Assembly (NCBI GenBank): GCA_905182785.1 | Contig: CAJJDF010000045.1 | Coordinates: 1-62,140, forward strand | Length of the DNA: 62,140 nucleotides | Source: an uncultured Flavobacteriales bacterium | GTDB lineage: Bacteria > Bacteroidota > Bacteroidia > Flavobacteriales_D > CAJJDF01 | Direction: 5' to 3' | In this document: in pieces, positions 39,328 to 48,309 of the stretch | Numbering within the stretch: the first letter of the stretch is position 1 | Layout of the letters: each line of letters begins with the position of its first letter | The notes under the pieces: model-generated | Databases searched by the model: none | What the model was told of the DNA's origin: nothing | What the model saw: only the letters and a program-made list of their open reading frames with translations | Program-made: the position numbers and the translations under genes

Positions 39328-42261
39328 ATGAAGAAAAAACTACTTAATATGAAGAGAAAAATTTCTCTTTTATCAACCTCGATATTTATTGCTGGAGCAA
39401 TAAATGCTCAAACCGTGAGTGGAAAAGTAACGGATAACAAGAATGGAGAACCAATATTTGGATCAACTGTATTTGTAAAAGGAAATACAAATACTGGAGT
39501 AACAACAGATTTTGATGGAAAATATAAAATAAAAGTCTCCGGAAATGATACTTTAATTGTGCGCTACATAGGGTATCAAACAAAAAAAATTGCTGTAAAT
39601 AAGAGAACTACAATTGACATAAAATTGGAAGCAAAAGACATGAATTTGGAAGAGTTTATGGTTATTGGAACAAGAAACCCAAACAGAACATCTACTGAGA
39701 GTGTAGTTGCAGTAGATATATTAGATATGAAAGATTTATCTGCATTAGGATCACAAACTTCGGTAAATGATATAATGAACATGGTAGCGCCTTCATTTAC
39801 ATCACAACCACAAACAGTAGCTGATGGAACAGATCATATTGATCCTGCCTCATTAAGAAACTTAGGTCCTGATCAAGTTTTGGTACTTATTAATGGAAAA
39901 AGAAGACATACTTCTTCTCTTATTAATATAAATGGAACTGTGGGTGCTGGAAGTGTAGGGACTGATATGAACTCTATCCCTACTGCTGCAATTTCAAGAA
40001 TAGAAGTCCTGAGAGATGGAGCTGCCGCACAATATGGATCGGATGCAATAGCCGGGGTTATTAATATTGTTCTTAAAGAAGGAACGAATAAGCTTGATTT
40101 TGCTATTAATACTGGAGCAAATGTGAGTAAAAATGGAAATGACCACGAAGGAGGTATGGATGGAGAAAGAGTTGATCTATCTGCAAACTACGGAATGGAC
40201 ATTGGTAAAAAAGGTGGATTTGTAAACTTTACTGGAAGCATTGGGGTAAGAAAACCTTCTTCGAGAGCAAAAGATTACACAGGAGCTATTTTTAATCGAT
40301 TTCATGGGGCAGAAAGAGTTTTTGCAGATGGAGGGGGGAATATTGCTGATATGACTTTAGCAGATTACCAAACAGCTTCTGCAAGCTTAAGCTATTTATC
40401 TGCTGCAGACAAAGCAACTATTGCCGGATTGGATGTTACAAATTCTACTGATGTTACAACTTTTAGAACCGTGCTAGGTGAAAATGCCGATGAAGATGAA
40501 TTGGCTGCAAGAGGATTGACAAGAAAAGATTTTAGATTTAGAGTTGGGCAGTCTCAATTGAGAGAAGGAAAATTCTTTGCTAATATGTCTTTACCTATTA
40601 ATGACAAAGCAGAAGTATATGGTTTTGGAGGTATGTCTTACAGACAAGGATTGGCTGCAGGGTTTTACAGAAGACCTGCGCAAGGTGATGGAAGAGCTAA
40701 CACAGTTGCTTTCCCTAACGGATTCTTACCAGAAATTGGTTCTGATGTAAATGATCAATCTTTTGCTTTTGGAATAAAAGGAGAAATGAAAGGTTGGAAT
40801 GTTGATTTCTCTAACACATACGGAAGAAACAGTTTTGGATATACAGTGTACAATTCGAGTAACGGAACTATGGGAGTAGCAACACAAAGAGAATTTGATG
40901 CAGGTTCTAACGCATTTTCTCAAAATACGACTAACTTAGATTTTAGTAAATTCTACAAAGGAGTACAGGAAGGGTTAAATTTAGCTTTTGGAACAGAATA
41001 CAGAGTAGAAAATTTCCAAATAACACAAGGAGAAGAAGCTTCTTGGGCTAGTTATGATGTGAACGGAGAAATTGTAACTTCAGCTACACACGATTCTTTG
41101 AAAGTTAAAAATAACTTTACTGGAGCAAATTTAGGAGGAGGTTCACAAGTTTTTGGGGGATTTACGGCTAATAATGAAGTAAACAAAAATAGAAATAGTA
41201 TTGCTGCTTATGCAGATGCTGAATTAGATGTAACCAAATCTTGGGTGCTGAATGCTGCATTGAGATTGGAAAGTTTTTCTGATTTTGGAGAAACATTGAA
41301 CGGAAAAATAGCTTCGAGGTATAAGATTACTAAAAATATTGCTATTAGAGGTGCATACAGTACTGGATTTAGAGCACCTTCCCTTCATCAAAAATACTTC
41401 AGTAGAAGTAGTACAATTTTTGATGCTAACGGAAATGTACAAGAAAAAGGAACTTTTGCAAACAACAGTAGAGCTGCTGATTTATTAGGAATTCCAGAAT
41501 TGAAAGAAGAAACATCTAACAATTACAGTTTAGGGATGACAATGAAAATACCTGATTTAAACCTAAGCTTAACAGTAGATGTATACCAGATAGACATAAA
41601 AGACAGAGTGGTATACACTGGTTCTTTTTCTGCAGGTACAGACCCAGAGCTTCAAGCAATTTTTGCAGCAGCAGGTGCAACTACAGCTGCATTTTTTGCA
41701 AATGCAATTGATACTCGTTCAAAAGGACTTGATGTTGTAATCTCACACAATAAATTATTCAAAAACGATTTATTACTTAAAAATGATCTTTCAGCTACTT
41801 TTTCATCAACTGAGCAAGTTGGAGATATAAAAACTACTGATCAATTGAAAGACCAAGCAACTACTTTCTTTGGAGAAAGACAAAAACTATTTTTGGAACA
41901 AGCTATGCCAAGAGTAAAAGTTAACTTGACTAACATTATAAAGCACAATAAATGGAGTTTCATGTTGAGAAACGTATATTTTGGTGAAGTAACAGATCCA
42001 GATTCTCATGCAGATGTTGATGCAAACGGAAACTCTGATTTGACTTACTATGGTGGGAAAATAATTACTGATTTATCAGTAGGATACGACTTTTCTAATC
42101 AATTCAGAATTACTGTAGGATCTAATAACTTATTAGATGTTTACCCAGATGAAAATAGAGTCGCTTCTACTTCTGGAAATCAATTTGTATATTCTAGAAG
42201 AACTTCACAGTTTGGATATACAGGAAGGTATGTATTTACTAGAATTAATTTTACTTTCTAA
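39328..42261 (+). CDS. TonB-dependent receptor with carboxypeptidase-like N-terminal domain
   Basis: A 977-residue outer-membrane receptor. A signal peptide ends near residue 27 (GAINAQ). A CarboxypepD_reg-like beta-sandwich follows (residues 28-105: SGKVTDNKNGEPIFGSTVFV, then DTLIVRYIGYQTKKI). The plug domain is about residues 110-250, with MVIGTRNPNRTS, the VLVLINGKRRH stretch and RIEVLRDGAAAQYGSDAIAG. The barrel fills the rest and ends in aromatic YVFTRINFTF. The start may instead be the second ATG at 39349 (MKRKISLL). It imports an unidentified ligand using TonB energy. There is no SusD gene beside it, so it is not a typical SusC pair. A strong terminator follows. Confidence 0.93.
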   Translation: MKKKLLNMKRKISLLSTSIFIAGAINAQTVSGKVTDNKNGEPIFGSTVFVKGNTNTGVTTDFDGKYKIKVSGNDTLIVRYIGYQTKKIAVNKRTTIDIKLEAKDMNLEEFMVIGTRNPNRTSTESVVAVDILDMKDLSALGSQTSVNDIMNMVAPSFTSQPQTVADGTDHIDPASLRNLGPDQVLVLINGKRRHTSSLININGTVGAGSVGTDMNSIPTAAISRIEVLRDGAAAQYGSDAIAGVINIVLKEGTNKLDFAINTGANVSKNGNDHEGGMDGERVDLSANYGMDIGKKGGFVNFTGSIGVRKPSSRAKDYTGAIFNRFHGAERVFADGGGNIADMTLADYQTASASLSYLSAADKATIAGLDVTNSTDVTTFRTVLGENADEDELAARGLTRKDFRFRVGQSQLREGKFFANMSLPINDKAEVYGFGGMSYRQGLAAGFYRRPAQGDGRANTVAFPNGFLPEIGSDVNDQSFAFGIKGEMKGWNVDFSNTYGRNSFGYTVYNSSNGTMGVATQREFDAGSNAFSQNTTNLDFSKFYKGVQEGLNLAFGTEYRVENFQITQGEEASWASYDVNGEIVTSATHDSLKVKNNFTGANLGGGSQVFGGFTANNEVNKNRNSIAAYADAELDVTKSWVLNAALRLESFSDFGETLNGKIASRYKITKNIAIRGAYSTGFRAPSLHQKYFSRSSTIFDANGNVQEKGTFANNSRAADLLGIPELKEETSNNYSLGMTMKIPDLNLSLTVDVYQIDIKDRVVYTGSFSAGTDPELQAIFAAAGATTAAFFANAIDTRSKGLDVVISHNKLFKNDLLLKNDLSATFSSTEQVGDIKTTDQLKDQATTFFGERQKLFLEQAMPRVKVNLTNIIKHNKWSFMLRNVYFGEVTDPDSHADVDANGNSDLTYYGGKIITDLSVGYDFSNQFRITVGSNNLLDVYPDENRVASTSGNQFVYSRRTSQFGYTGRYVFTRINFTF

Positions 42262-43577: not shown

Positions 43578-44528
43578 CTACCTCTGAAGAATTACTTTTT
43601 GATAATGAACCTGTATTTCATTAATTTTTAATGCGATAAAATAATGTCCATTTGGTAATTCTGGTGCTGGCGACCATTCCGCTTCGTACTTTTCGGCTTC
43701 CAATGTTTTCTCTTCCAAATTGGCAACTAACATTCCTTGTACATCATATACCAATACGTTCACTTTTGCTTTATTAAATACTCCATATTGGATTGTTACC
43801 TTATTCACAAATGGATTGGGAGACACTTTATAAATCATACCTCTATCAATATGCAAGTCATTTGTCCCAACAATTACTCCGTTCCCATTAATTACAATAT
43901 CCCAAGTTCCTTCCATATTTCCAGTGGTAGAATTTAATGTTAAAGGAATTATTCTATGAGTTGCATCATAAGTTCCTGAGGTGATTGAAGCGGCTGCATC
44001 TGTGGGTATAGATGTATCTCCTGTAAAATATAATTGGGTAGTCAATAAACTAAACCCTGGAGGTGTAATCTTAAAATGGATATGAGAAGGACGGTATTGA
44101 CTTCCATTCAAATATTTACCTGGTTTAACGGTTTCAAAAATATAAAACCCTTGATTGTTTGAAGTGGTTTTCCCTCTTAAATTATAGGTTGTATTGTCAT
44201 ATTGCCCAGCATTATTCGCATGCCAAACATCCACAATAGTATTAGGAATTACTTTTGAGCAATCCAGATTTCTAACCCTTCCACTTATTACTATTCTGGT
44301 TCCTACTTCAGTTGAACCGGCTAATTGGCCAGCAGAAATTACAGGTGGATTTGCAGTATAAAAAGGACCTTCTCCATAATAATCTAGTGTTGTTGGATCA
44401 CAATCTAGAGCAGAATCATCCTCAGGAGAATTTGCTTTTAGTAAATTAGGAATCACACCAACTCCTAGTATTGCCAGAGAAGTATTTTTTAAAAATTGTC
44501 TTCTTTTATTATTTTTCTTTTTCTCCAT
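43578..44528 (-). CDS. Intradiol ring-cleavage dioxygenase-like protein with Tat signal and T9SS tail
   Basis: A 316-residue exported protein. Residues 9-14 are RRQFLK, a twin-arginine motif, before a hydrophobic stretch (TSLAILGVGVIP). The intradiol dioxygenase fold follows, with the likely Fe(III) ligands Tyr110 (NNAGQYDN), Tyr139 (KPGKY), His149 and His151 (RPSHIHF), spaced as in catechol dioxygenases. From about residue 233 a T9SS sorting tail follows (VSPNPFVNKVTIQ, then VLVYDVQGM, ending YQKVILQR). Members cleave catechol-type rings; extracellular members with this fold are less characterised. Substrate is unknown. The combination of Tat export and T9SS is unusual. It ends on TAG. Confidence 0.8.
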   Translation of the reverse strand: MEKKKNNKRRQFLKNTSLAILGVGVIPNLLKANSPEDDSALDCDPTTLDYYGEGPFYTANPPVISAGQLAGSTEVGTRIVISGRVRNLDCSKVIPNTIVDVWHANNAGQYDNTTYNLRGKTTSNNQGFYIFETVKPGKYLNGSQYRPSHIHFKITPPGFSLLTTQLYFTGDTSIPTDAAASITSGTYDATHRIIPLTLNSTTGNMEGTWDIVINGNGVIVGTNDLHIDRGMIYKVSPNPFVNKVTIQYGVFNKAKVNVLVYDVQGMLVANLEEKTLEAEKYEAEWSPAPELPNGHYFIALKINEIQVHYQKVILQR

Positions 44529-45316: not shown

Positions 45317-46591
45317 TTAAAGTGCCGGAAGCACTTTAGCTTTCACTTCTCCAAATCCGATTCTTACCCCGTCTTTTTCGGAGAAACCTCTCATGATTAC
45401 GGTATCGTTATCGTTTATGAATTTTCTTTCTGTTCCATCTTTCATAGGAACTGTTTTTGATCCTTTCCAAGAAAGCTCAAGCATTGAACCAAATTCACTT
45501 TCTTTTGGTCCAGATATTGTTCCAGACCCCATACAATCCCCTGTTCTTATGTTACATCCATTTACAGAGTGATGCGCTAATTGTTGGTTCATATTCCAAT
45601 ACATGTATTTGTAATTGGATTTTGAAACCGAAGTTTCTTCCCCTCCTTCTGGCTGAATCAATACTTCTAAATTAATATTTACGTGTTTGTCTCCTGCATA
45701 TTCCAAATAAGGCAATACTTTAGGATCCTGAATAGGTCCTGCAGTTCTAAATGGTTCTAAAGCATCCAAAGTAACTATCCAACTAGAAATGTGAGAAGCA
45801 AAACTTTTTCCTAAGAAAGGGCCTAAGGGCACATATTCCCAACCTTGAATATCTCTTGCGCTCCAATCGTTCAACAAAGTCATCCCAAAAATATAATCGT
45901 CTGCTTCTTCCGTAGAAATAGAACCTCCAAGTGGTTTTCCTTCATAGGTAAAAAAAGCTGTTTCCAATTCAAAATCTAATAATTTACTAGCTCCAAAAAC
46001 TGGAACTTCAGCTGTAGGAGGTTTCATTTGACCTTTTGGTCTGTGGAAATTCAGACCAGATGGAACTATAGAACTGGACCTTCCGTGATATCCCACGGGA
46101 ATATGTTTCCAGTTTGGCAATAATGCGTTATCTGGATCACGGAACAAACAACCTACGTTAAAAGCATGTTGCTCACTCGAGTAAAAATCTGTGTAATCCC
46201 CAATATGCATTGGCAATAACATTTCTACCTCACTTTGTTCATGTAAAACTTGCTCGCAATGGTGTTCTTTTTTTTGCAACTCTTCATTGTCTGCGTTCAA
46301 TAAATCAGAAATTCTATTTCTCAATTCTCTTGTTCCTTGTTTTCCATGACGCATCATAGTATTCAGCACATTAGAACTAAAATCTTCTATCGTAAATTGT
46401 AACCTTGTTAAATAACCCAAAGAATGCAAAGCTTTTAAATCCAAAACTTTATCTCCAATAGCAACTCCCACTCTTGGTGAGTTTCCATTGTGTTTAAATA
46501 TTCCTAAAGGAAGATTTTGAATAGGGAAATCAGAATTTACTGGGACTTCTACCCAAGATTGTAATGCTGGATTGTTCGCTTTTAATGTCAT
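45317..46591 (-). CDS. fahA: Fumarylacetoacetase
   Basis: Hydrolyses fumarylacetoacetate to fumarate and acetoacetate, the last step of tyrosine catabolism. The 424-residue length is normal for bacterial FAH. The HAFNVGCLFRDPDNALLPNW segment and the metal-binding FELETAFFTYEGKPLG stretch, then NDWSARDIQGWEYVPLGPFL and the GTISGPKESEFGSMLELSW tail, are diagnostic. The start MTLKANNPALQSWVEV is standard. No homogentisate dioxygenase gene is in the window. An upstream promoter with full consensus was not found. Confidence 0.97.
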   Translation of the reverse strand: MTLKANNPALQSWVEVPVNSDFPIQNLPLGIFKHNGNSPRVGVAIGDKVLDLKALHSLGYLTRLQFTIEDFSSNVLNTMMRHGKQGTRELRNRISDLLNADNEELQKKEHHCEQVLHEQSEVEMLLPMHIGDYTDFYSSEQHAFNVGCLFRDPDNALLPNWKHIPVGYHGRSSSIVPSGLNFHRPKGQMKPPTAEVPVFGASKLLDFELETAFFTYEGKPLGGSISTEEADDYIFGMTLLNDWSARDIQGWEYVPLGPFLGKSFASHISSWIVTLDALEPFRTAGPIQDPKVLPYLEYAGDKHVNINLEVLIQPEGGEETSVSKSNYKYMYWNMNQQLAHHSVNGCNIRTGDCMGSGTISGPKESEFGSMLELSWKGSKTVPMKDGTERKFINDNDTVIMRGFSEKDGVRIGFGEVKAKVLPAL

Positions 46592-46663
46592 TTATTTGTA
46601 ATTATTTATTGCTATAGTAAAAATACGAAACTAGCTATACAAACAAAAGTATAATTCATAAAA

Positions 46664-46691
46664 AAAGCCATTTACTTTCGTAAATGGCTTT
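46664..46691 (-). terminator. Terminator of the reductase gene (repeated hairpin)
   Basis: AAAGCCATTTAC and GTAAATGGCTTT pair around TTTC. The 28 bases, and more flanking A/T tract, are identical to 48971-49000 downstream of pdhB. It follows the reductase stop on the minus strand by 17 bases. Confidence 0.85.
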
Positions 46692-46707
46692 TTGACAAAA
46701 CTTATTC

Positions 46708-47742
46708 TTACTTCACAATTCCTTGTAATTTCATTTGCTCCACCATATCTGTGATCGTTTTTTCAAATGGAATGTATTTCAATCCTAATTTCTCTTTACT
46801 CTTAGAGCTGTCCAATTTTAAATCATGTCCAATATTGTTTCTAACAAACTTTCTAGAAAAACCAGCAATTGGTCCAACTATCATCAACAACCACCTTGGA
46901 ACATAAGATGTTGGCACTTTGTAAGTATCTTCATATGTTGACTTAACAACATTAGCCATTTCAAGTATCCCCGCTACACTTTCGGCTAATATATGACGTC
47001 CTTTTGCTTCTGTTTCAAGCCCTAAAATATGAGCTTTTGCTACATCTCTTACATCTACAAATCCAAATTTCAAATCTGGTGCTCCTGACTTATACTTCCC
47101 TGTTAGTAATTCGGTCATTACTTTCAAACTTTCCGATTTAGAAGTTGTAGTCAATGATGGTCCCATCACAAAAGAGGGATTCATTACGACTAATTCCCAT
47201 TCGTTTTGTTTTTTGTTAATCTCCCAAGCTTTATTCTCTGCTGAAACTTTAGAAAAAGAATAAGGTTGATGGCTTAAAGAACTGGTTGTATTAAAGTGTT
47301 CTTCAGTAAAAATAGAAATATTTTGATTTTTCATATCAATGTTATCTCCATGAACAGAAGCTACACTAGAAGTTAACACTACTTTTTTTACTGTCCCTGA
47401 TTTATTTGCTGCTTCCAATACATTTTCTGTTCCTTTTACTGCAGGATCTACCAAATCTTTTTGAGCATCTTTTATTTTTAGGAAAAATGGCGAAGCAATG
47501 TGAGCAATCATGTCACTCCCTTTTGCTGGAGCATCAAAACTTCCTTTTTTCATTAAATCTGCTTCCCAAAGTTCTAAGGTTCCTTCACTTTTATCTGCTA
47601 TTTCTTGAAGAAAACTATATTTCTCTTTTTTAGATTTATCTCTTACTGTTAATCGAACAGTATTTCCTTTCTCTAATAATCCTTTTACTACCCAAGAACC
47701 AATAAAACCAGTTCCTCCTGTTACTAAAATTGTATTTTTCAT
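46708..47742 (-). CDS. NAD(P)-dependent epimerase/dehydratase family reductase
   Basis: An extended SDR of 344 residues. The N-terminus has the NAD(P)-binding GGTGFIGSW motif (residues 8-16) and the catalytic YSFSKVSAE (YxxxK) near residue 161. The overall pattern is like dihydroflavonol reductase-type aldehyde/ketone reductases of bacteria. Substrate is unknown. It follows the TetR gene with a 9-base gap, so the two are an operon; a TetR repressor next to a reductase often responds to the reductase substrate or product, which is an inference here. It ends before the repeated terminator. Confidence 0.86.
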   Translation of the reverse strand: MKNTILVTGGTGFIGSWVVKGLLEKGNTVRLTVRDKSKKEKYSFLQEIADKSEGTLELWEADLMKKGSFDAPAKGSDMIAHIASPFFLKIKDAQKDLVDPAVKGTENVLEAANKSGTVKKVVLTSSVASVHGDNIDMKNQNISIFTEEHFNTTSSLSHQPYSFSKVSAENKAWEINKKQNEWELVVMNPSFVMGPSLTTTSKSESLKVMTELLTGKYKSGAPDLKFGFVDVRDVAKAHILGLETEAKGRHILAESVAGILEMANVVKSTYEDTYKVPTSYVPRWLLMIVGPIAGFSRKFVRNNIGHDLKLDSSKSKEKLGLKYIPFEKTITDMVEQMKLQGIVK

Positions 47743-47751
47743 CTTCGCCTT

Positions 47752-48309
47752 TTATTTTTTTGCAATTGCTCTCCAAGAGTATTCAATCGCTTGTTTTAAT
47801 TTATTTTCTGTTATGTTATTTCTATTCACCTGTATATCTACTGTTGTAACAATACTATTGTATGTTAAACTCCCCATTAAATCCAGATCTATATCTACCA
47901 AGTATCCTTCGTCAATTCCTTTTTGATAAAATTCTATAATTGGCATTATGTATAATTCACATTGCTCCTTCACTTCTTTTGTAATAATGGGACAATGATC
48001 TATTTGTTGTAAAAACTTAAATTGTATGGGGTTCTTTACAAAGAAATGATAAACACCCAACCATGTATATTCAAATTCTTCCTTAAACCCTAATTTCTTC
48101 TCTCTACTATTTTCTAAAATATGAGAAAAGTTCTTTTTGATGTTTATGTAAATCTCATTTATAATTTCTTCCTTACTTTTAAAATGATGGTAAAATGTCC
48201 CGACAGCTATTCCTGCTTTTTTGGCTATTTGTGCCATTGGGCTTCCACTCACTCCTTCCTCAGCTATTAACTGAGTTGTAAATTCTAATATTTTCTCTCT
48301 TTTCGTCAT
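47752..48309 (-). CDS. TetR family transcriptional regulator
   Basis: A 185-residue repressor-type protein. The N-terminal helix-turn-helix is GVSGSPMAQIAKKAGIAVGT followed by FYHHFKSKEEI, a very typical TetR signature at residues 20-50. The rest is helical ligand-binding domain with no named family. It is the first gene of a two-gene operon with the reductase. A palindrome sits just before its ATG and overlaps the transcript start region, so autoregulation is likely. Confidence 0.93.
   Translation of the reverse strand: MTKREKILEFTTQLIAEEGVSGSPMAQIAKKAGIAVGTFYHHFKSKEEIINEIYINIKKNFSHILENSREKKLGFKEEFEYTWLGVYHFFVKNPIQFKFLQQIDHCPIITKEVKEQCELYIMPIIEFYQKGIDEGYLVDIDLDLMGSLTYNSIVTTVDIQVNRNNITENKLKQAIEYSWRAIAKK

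Follow-up and report, generated by a model that had tools for sequence, protein, structure and literature searches.

The analysed window (the whole stretch of 62,140 nucleotides) carries the gene of what is probably a secreted mononuclear Fe(III) intradiol dioxygenase, which would be exported by the twin-arginine (Tat) pathway and then by T9SS, undergo processing of its tail by PorU, and cleave catechol rings outside the cell. The protein combines an intradiol dioxygenase domain, in which the iron ligands are conserved, with a Tat motif and a T9SS tail (Table 1), and the genome encodes both export machineries. Since relatives in many genomes keep both export labels, which are seldom considered side by side, the dioxygenase probably uses them in turn, and this core interpretation (Tat, then T9SS) is well supported by sequence comparison, though unproven by experiment. 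The protein would depart from known kinds in two respects, as T9SS cargo that bears a Tat signal and as an intradiol dioxygenase secreted by members of a Gram-negative phylum.

Table 1. Features of the dioxygenase gene and its product, with positions in the window
Feature	Position	Strand	Description or basis
Whole dioxygenase gene, 316 aa	43578..44528	-	signal peptide + intradiol dioxygenase domain + linker + T9SS type A sorting domain
Tat-type signal peptide, residues 1-32	44433..44528	-	clade alignment
Twin-arginine motif RRQFLK, residues 9-14	44487..44504	-	clade alignment, Tat profile
Intradiol dioxygenase domain, residues about 43-216	43881..44402	-	Dioxygenase_C 53-214, structure comparison
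Cys43	44400..44402	-	30/30 clade rows
Cys90	44259..44261	-	30/30 clade rows
Fe(III) ligand Tyr110	44199..44201	-	aligned to PCD, family alignment
Fe(III) ligand Tyr139	44112..44114	-	aligned to PCD, family alignment
Fe(III) ligand His149	44082..44084	-	aligned to PCD, family alignment
Fe(III) ligand His151	44076..44078	-	aligned to PCD, family alignment
Linker, residues 217-228	43845..43880	-	model confidence low
T9SS type A sorting domain, residues 229-316	43581..43844	-	Pfam, NCBIfam, model, alignment

Catalytic domain and iron site

The reading frame begins with ATG and is intact. In the AlphaFold model of its product (mean pLDDT 69) the signal is disordered and both domains lie mostly at 75-90. 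The Dioxygenase_C family (PF00775) matches residues 53-214 with an E-value of 8.8e-26 and 90.9 bits, against a Pfam cut-off of 27.3, which bears out the assignment to the intradiol dioxygenases made in an earlier note on this DNA. The equivalogs of protocatechuate 3,4-dioxygenase (PCD) beta chain and catechol 1,2-dioxygenase (TIGR02422, TIGR02465, TIGR02438 and TIGR02439) gave 63-78 bits, below their cut-offs of 296-404.

The four candidate iron ligands named in the same note, Tyr110, Tyr139, His149 and His151, align with the ligands of PCD, presumably Tyr408, Tyr447, His460 and His462 in PCD numbering, and are present in 83, 82, 83 and 82 of 83 relatives, respectively. The active-site residues Arg146 (82/83) and Gln165 (83/83) are conserved as well. 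The 2-Tyr/2-His iron site with its Arg and Gln is shared with the PCD beta chain and the catechol 1,2-dioxygenases, which are cytosolic enzymes. Cys43 and Cys90 are the only two cysteines of the protein; both also occur in 34 of 53 rows of the alignment outside its clade and are missing from all four PCD-type rows (L210, L232-L234), which differ from the dioxygenase in lacking the Tat motif too. A disulfide between Cys43 and Cys90, formed outside the cytosol, is likely.

The closest solved fold to the model of residues 45-216 was that of SACTE_2871 (4ilt; Z 21.8, 1.7 A over 154). This protein of Streptomyces sp. SirexAA-E, secreted according to the title of a paper cited in PMC9167512, likewise consists of a small single-chain intradiol domain and another domain (PDB 4ILT/4ILV). 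It differs in its Gram-positive host and in the extra domain, which is carbohydrate-binding and binds polymer, in place of the T9SS sorting domain found here.

The two export signals and their distribution among relatives

The N-terminus of the dioxygenase reads MEKKKNNKRRQFLKNTSLAILGVGVIPNLLKANS, in which RRQFLK stands ahead of a hydrophobic stretch containing Gly and Pro. The hydrophobic core begins near residue 18, leaving a long n-region, and there is no Q at +1, unlike in most tailed proteins of the genome. Signal peptidase I is likely to cut after Ala32 (LKA/NS); position 32 is Ala in 16 and Ser in 7 of 27 clade rows. The core hydrophobicity is 2.06; the 61 tailed proteins average 2.45 (sd 0.39), and among them the dioxygenase ranks ninth from the bottom, below the mean, yet no outlier. 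The generic Tat model TIGR01409 gave 12.1 bits on the protein and 15.4 bits in the whole-genome search, in both cases below the cut-off of 16.7, and it matches 22 of the 30 clade rows at E<=0.5. The Tat assignment thus draws on the h-region, on the motif and how well it is conserved, and on a profile to which the dioxygenase itself scores under the cut-off.

The sorting domain was recognised by Por_Secre_tail (PF18962; residues 236-313, 36.5 bits, Pfam cut-off 27) and by the NCBIfam model TIGR04183 (30.2 bits, cut-off 23), and the C-terminal T9SS domain proposed earlier therefore stands above both cut-offs, although in the genome-wide tail search its 33.7 bits are among the lowest of the 70 matches over the cut-off. 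The model of residues 225-316 superimposes on the C-terminal (sorting) domain of PorU from P. gingivalis (6za2) with Z 11.0 and 2.2 A over 88 residues at 25% identity; complement C3 chains, with Ig-like domains, equal it (Z 11.0-11.3), and similarity of fold by itself therefore does not single out a sorting domain. Among the features of the domain, PNP (237-239), G294-x-Y296 and K311, the residues Pro237, Pro239, Gly294, Tyr296 and Lys311 are unchanged in all clade rows having those columns, and Asn238 in 29/30.

A scan of named genomes gave 11 loci, eight of which, from Saprospiraceae/Saprospirales, Flavobacteriales and Aureispira MAGs, are 58-68% identical to the dioxygenase and cover both of its ends where the contig allows; alignment A1 comprises eight of the 11 loci and the window. 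A relative at >=51% identity was found in 16 of 395 genomes of the class, and a high-scoring match (>=411 bits) in 12 of 249 genomes of the order, the host being included in both counts. The family set was taken from the best up to 30 loci per scan, out of many more matches, weaker ones being left out. Many matches in two scans were of the tail alone, and such loci (L213-L215, L235, L236, L240, L241, L244) were excluded; L053, L055 and L187 were dropped as lying on the same contigs as L039, L041 and L050, as was L054 with its broken frame, where RRQFL is seen in another frame. Motif and tail were counted in 87 rows, and a quick tree was built from 83 catalytic domains (the same rows minus L195, L212, L230 and L237). 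Tails were also scored by a home-made profile of 67 other tailed proteins of the genome, which gave >=18 bits for tailed and <=3.2 for untailed rows.

In this tree the dioxygenase belongs to a clade of 30 rows from many genera (SH-aLRT 99), in which the T9SS tail was detected in all rows by the home-made profile and in 29 by Pfam. Of the clade's N-termini 27 can be read, and none of them departs from R9, R10, F12 and L13; close relatives thus share both signals, a point that the earlier note had proposed to check. Asn15 occurs in 25 and Pro27 in 21 of the 27. Mean pairwise identity is 33% in the signal region, 65% in the catalytic domain and 51% in the tail, and the invariance of R9, R10, F12 and L13 despite the low identity around them indicates that exactly the residues defining the Tat motif are under constraint. 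A conserved twin-arginine motif before a moderately hydrophobic core, as in Tat substrates, is thus characteristic of the clade, not of all distant relatives, and the pairing of RR with the tail exceeds chance, as judged from these alignments. One clade member, L064 (1501-2457, minus strand), combines RR with a lipobox-like AAGC and with a T9SS tail that is weak by the home-made profile (18.2 bits).

Outside the clade the motif is less uniform. The 47 tailed rows comprise 36 with RR, 4 with RK, 5 in which the motif was not found and 2 that are cut, and the 40 untailed rows comprise 22 with RK, 10 with RR and 8 with neither. Among the five tailed rows without the motif, L192 and L195 have RR upstream of in-frame stops and L229 reads MKRSDFLK; in the tailed rows L070 and L231 the N-terminal motif is unreadable. 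Homologues without the RR pair, which the earlier note regarded as evidence against its proposal, are thus absent from the readable part of the clade (27/27 RR) and present beyond it, as RK in 4 of 47 tailed rows and as KR in L229. The RK rows retain an R-K-x-F-[LI] frame, suggesting that the whole family is built on a Tat-like N-terminus. As such N-termini are found in tailed and untailed members alike, export of this type probably preceded the gain of the tail, which seems to have been added in several branches. At least four tail changes were counted on the tree, a rough number because the tree is quick and long branches were flagged.

Several other relatives have layouts of their own. The ninth locus of the named-genome scan (L046, 33% identical) has both RR and tail, and its MAG is labelled Candidatus Marinimicrobia, so that the layout may extend past Bacteroidota, or the label may be wrong. 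The untailed rows L072, L074, L075, L077, L198-L203 and L205-L208 have [DENH]RKxF[LI], not RRxF[LI], and nearly all of their searched hosts possess TatC. The untailed relatives L076 and L078 are likely lipoproteins, judging from their lipobox, and the untailed RR relatives L218-L221, L223 and L224 (about 300 aa) have an extra C-terminal region of about 100 aa, which is no T9SS tail.

Export machinery and the proposed route

The host genome (2.32 Mb, 73 contigs, 100% complete) contains one TatC gene, two TatA/B-type genes, SprA (2449 bits) and PorU (1234 bits); tatC, tatA, sprA (sov) and porU, which the earlier note had proposed to look for, were thus all found. One of the TatA-type genes is located some 2 kb away from sprA (G000 contig C17, 21534-31246, L127), and the stretch between them holds what we take to be a ruvA-like gene and genes for a TlpA-like protein and a small tailed one. 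Three places in the genome match the generic Tat profile (E<=10), the dioxygenase and two others without a sorting-domain match, presumably an ActB-like protein (RRDFLK) and a DUF1501-like protein (RREFIK); the dioxygenase is therefore not the sole candidate substrate of Tat in its host. Of 25 clade hosts in which TatC was looked for, 23 have it, and the other two genomes are 70% and 80% complete; it is present in 70 of the 74 searched genomes that carry these dioxygenase genes, whatever the motif. Being near-universal, it does not discriminate RR from RK relatives and is uninformative in this respect.

TIGR04183 matches 73 places in the genome, 70 of them over the cut-off, and the N-termini of these 70 ORFs were readable in 61 cases, cut at contig ends in 7 and fragmentary in 2. 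Among the 70, a Tat-type N-terminus (RRxFLK) belongs to the dioxygenase alone. The looser pattern RR.[FLIVMAGT] occurs in just one more of the 70, C24:23975, whose core is very hydrophobic and Sec-like, and the other readable N-termini are mostly of the form MKK-hydrophobic-SQ, Sec-type by eye. RR.[FLIVM] near the N-terminus was absent in 17 tyrosinase loci (16 proteins, L143 and L151 being one) and in 30 multicopper oxidase loci read, out of about 85 oxidase places listed and with many loci cut at the 3' end; the combination of Tat signal and tail was thus found in none of them. At least one of these tyrosinases (L143) and six or seven of the oxidases (L179, L181-L185 and perhaps L180), all encoded in other genomes, showed a T9SS-like tail by eye, in each case with a Sec-like signal, indicating that a metal centre alone brings no Tat signal to T9SS cargo.

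According to the accessible parts of PMC5445135, PMC9251779, PMC7463736 and PMC7073777, T9SS cargo is Sec-exported, as the earlier note stated in general terms, and in one of these papers it is said to fold in the periplasm. Folded proteins are said to go through SprA (PMC9251779), so that a Tat step and a T9SS step would be compatible. No description of a Tat-exported T9SS cargo was found in the mainly open-access literature consulted, including the available parts of PMC4804311, PMC9127263, PMC6549377 and PMC5121618, and none of the terms sought occurs in PMC5742166. The nearest experimental precedent for a Tat-fed outer-membrane secreton, as far as the accessible text of PMC4899797 goes, is Tat followed by T2SS in Pseudomonas aeruginosa, where PlcH and PA3910 use Tat at the inner membrane and a separate secreton at the outer one, which is, however, T2SS and not T9SS. 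The dioxygenase resembles T9SS type A cargo (TIGR04183, PF18962) in its tail, which exceeds the curated cut-offs, and in the presence of SprA and PorU in the genome, and seems to differ in having a Tat-type rather than a Sec-type N-terminal signal. PlcH, PA3910 and other T2SS substrates that depend on Tat are not known to have a C-terminal sorting domain.

On the proposed route the dioxygenase would fold in the cytosol, where Fe(III) is probably loaded, and would pass the inner membrane folded, by Tat, its signal being cut by signal peptidase after Ala32. T9SS would then recognise the tail and take the protein through the translocon SprA, and PorU would remove or swap the tail. The enzyme would end up on the cell surface or free in the medium and may open catecholic rings there; the plant- or alga-derived phenolics suggested in the earlier note would be candidate substrates. 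The hand-over from Tat to T9SS raised in the earlier note is favoured by the motif, the tail, the machinery and the conservation, and is weakened by RK or KR in distant tailed relatives. We consider it reasonably likely that it represents a naturally selected relay, in which T9SS takes cargo folded and metal-loaded before the periplasm, in a widespread Bacteroidota clade; this reading would also take in tailed RR relatives outside the clade, such as L046.

The same protein might be exported by Tat and stay in the periplasm like its tail-less relatives, the tail being spent or structural. The low rank of the tail within its genome (33.7 bits) and the existence of tail-less relatives, some with a lipobox (L076, L078), would fit this, but a tail that exceeds both the Pfam and the NCBIfam cut-offs, recurs in 29/30 clade rows, keeps its Pro, Gly, Tyr and Lys residues (and Asn238 in 29/30) and stands in a genome with SprA, PorU and 70 tail places makes such a fate unlikely. 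Alternatively, Sec might read the signal, alone or besides Tat, the RR being incidental, and the enzyme would be an ordinary Sec-T9SS cargo that acquires its iron outside the cytosol. The export route stated for cargo in the accessible parts of T9SS reviews, the Sec-like signals of the sampled tailed copper enzymes, which indicate that binding a metal does not by itself require Tat, the RK of distant tailed relatives and an h-region hydrophobicity within the overlap of the Sec range are all consistent with this; it is rather improbable in view of RR-x-F-L unchanged in 27/27 N-termini, the long n-region, the Gly/Pro-containing core and the missing Q at +1. That the arrangement arose by chance or from an annotation artefact, such as a wrong start or fused frames, is very improbable and is refuted by conservation: broken frames occur in the relatives L054, L192 and L195, from draft genomes, while nothing of the kind is seen in the dioxygenase gene itself, its ORF is intact, and the layout is the same in many genomes.

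If the reading of Tat followed by T9SS is right, a cargo that has kept Tat would show that T9SS accepts a protein folded before its entry into the periplasm. Bacteroidota would also gain an extracellular enzyme opening aromatic rings, with a bearing on the turnover or detoxification of catecholic compounds. Being small and simple to assay, the dioxygenase would then offer a clean natural test of the Tat-T9SS route.

Surroundings of the gene

The neighbours of the dioxygenase in the window include genes of a queE-like radical SAM protein, a 5-FTHF cyclo-ligase, YbaB and a fumarylacetoacetase. The last of these lies upstream, with an NAD-dependent epimerase-like protein and a TetR regulator (45317-48309, minus strand); fumarylacetoacetase is a member of aromatic catabolism too. 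This arrangement was absent, by eye, at the four loci of relatives inspected (L038, L042, L043 and L045), and a shared operon was rejected; since the neighbours differ between the window and these loci, the dioxygenase gene looks stand-alone. A TonB-dependent receptor with a CarboxypepD_reg domain is encoded near it on the opposite strand (39328-42261, plus strand).
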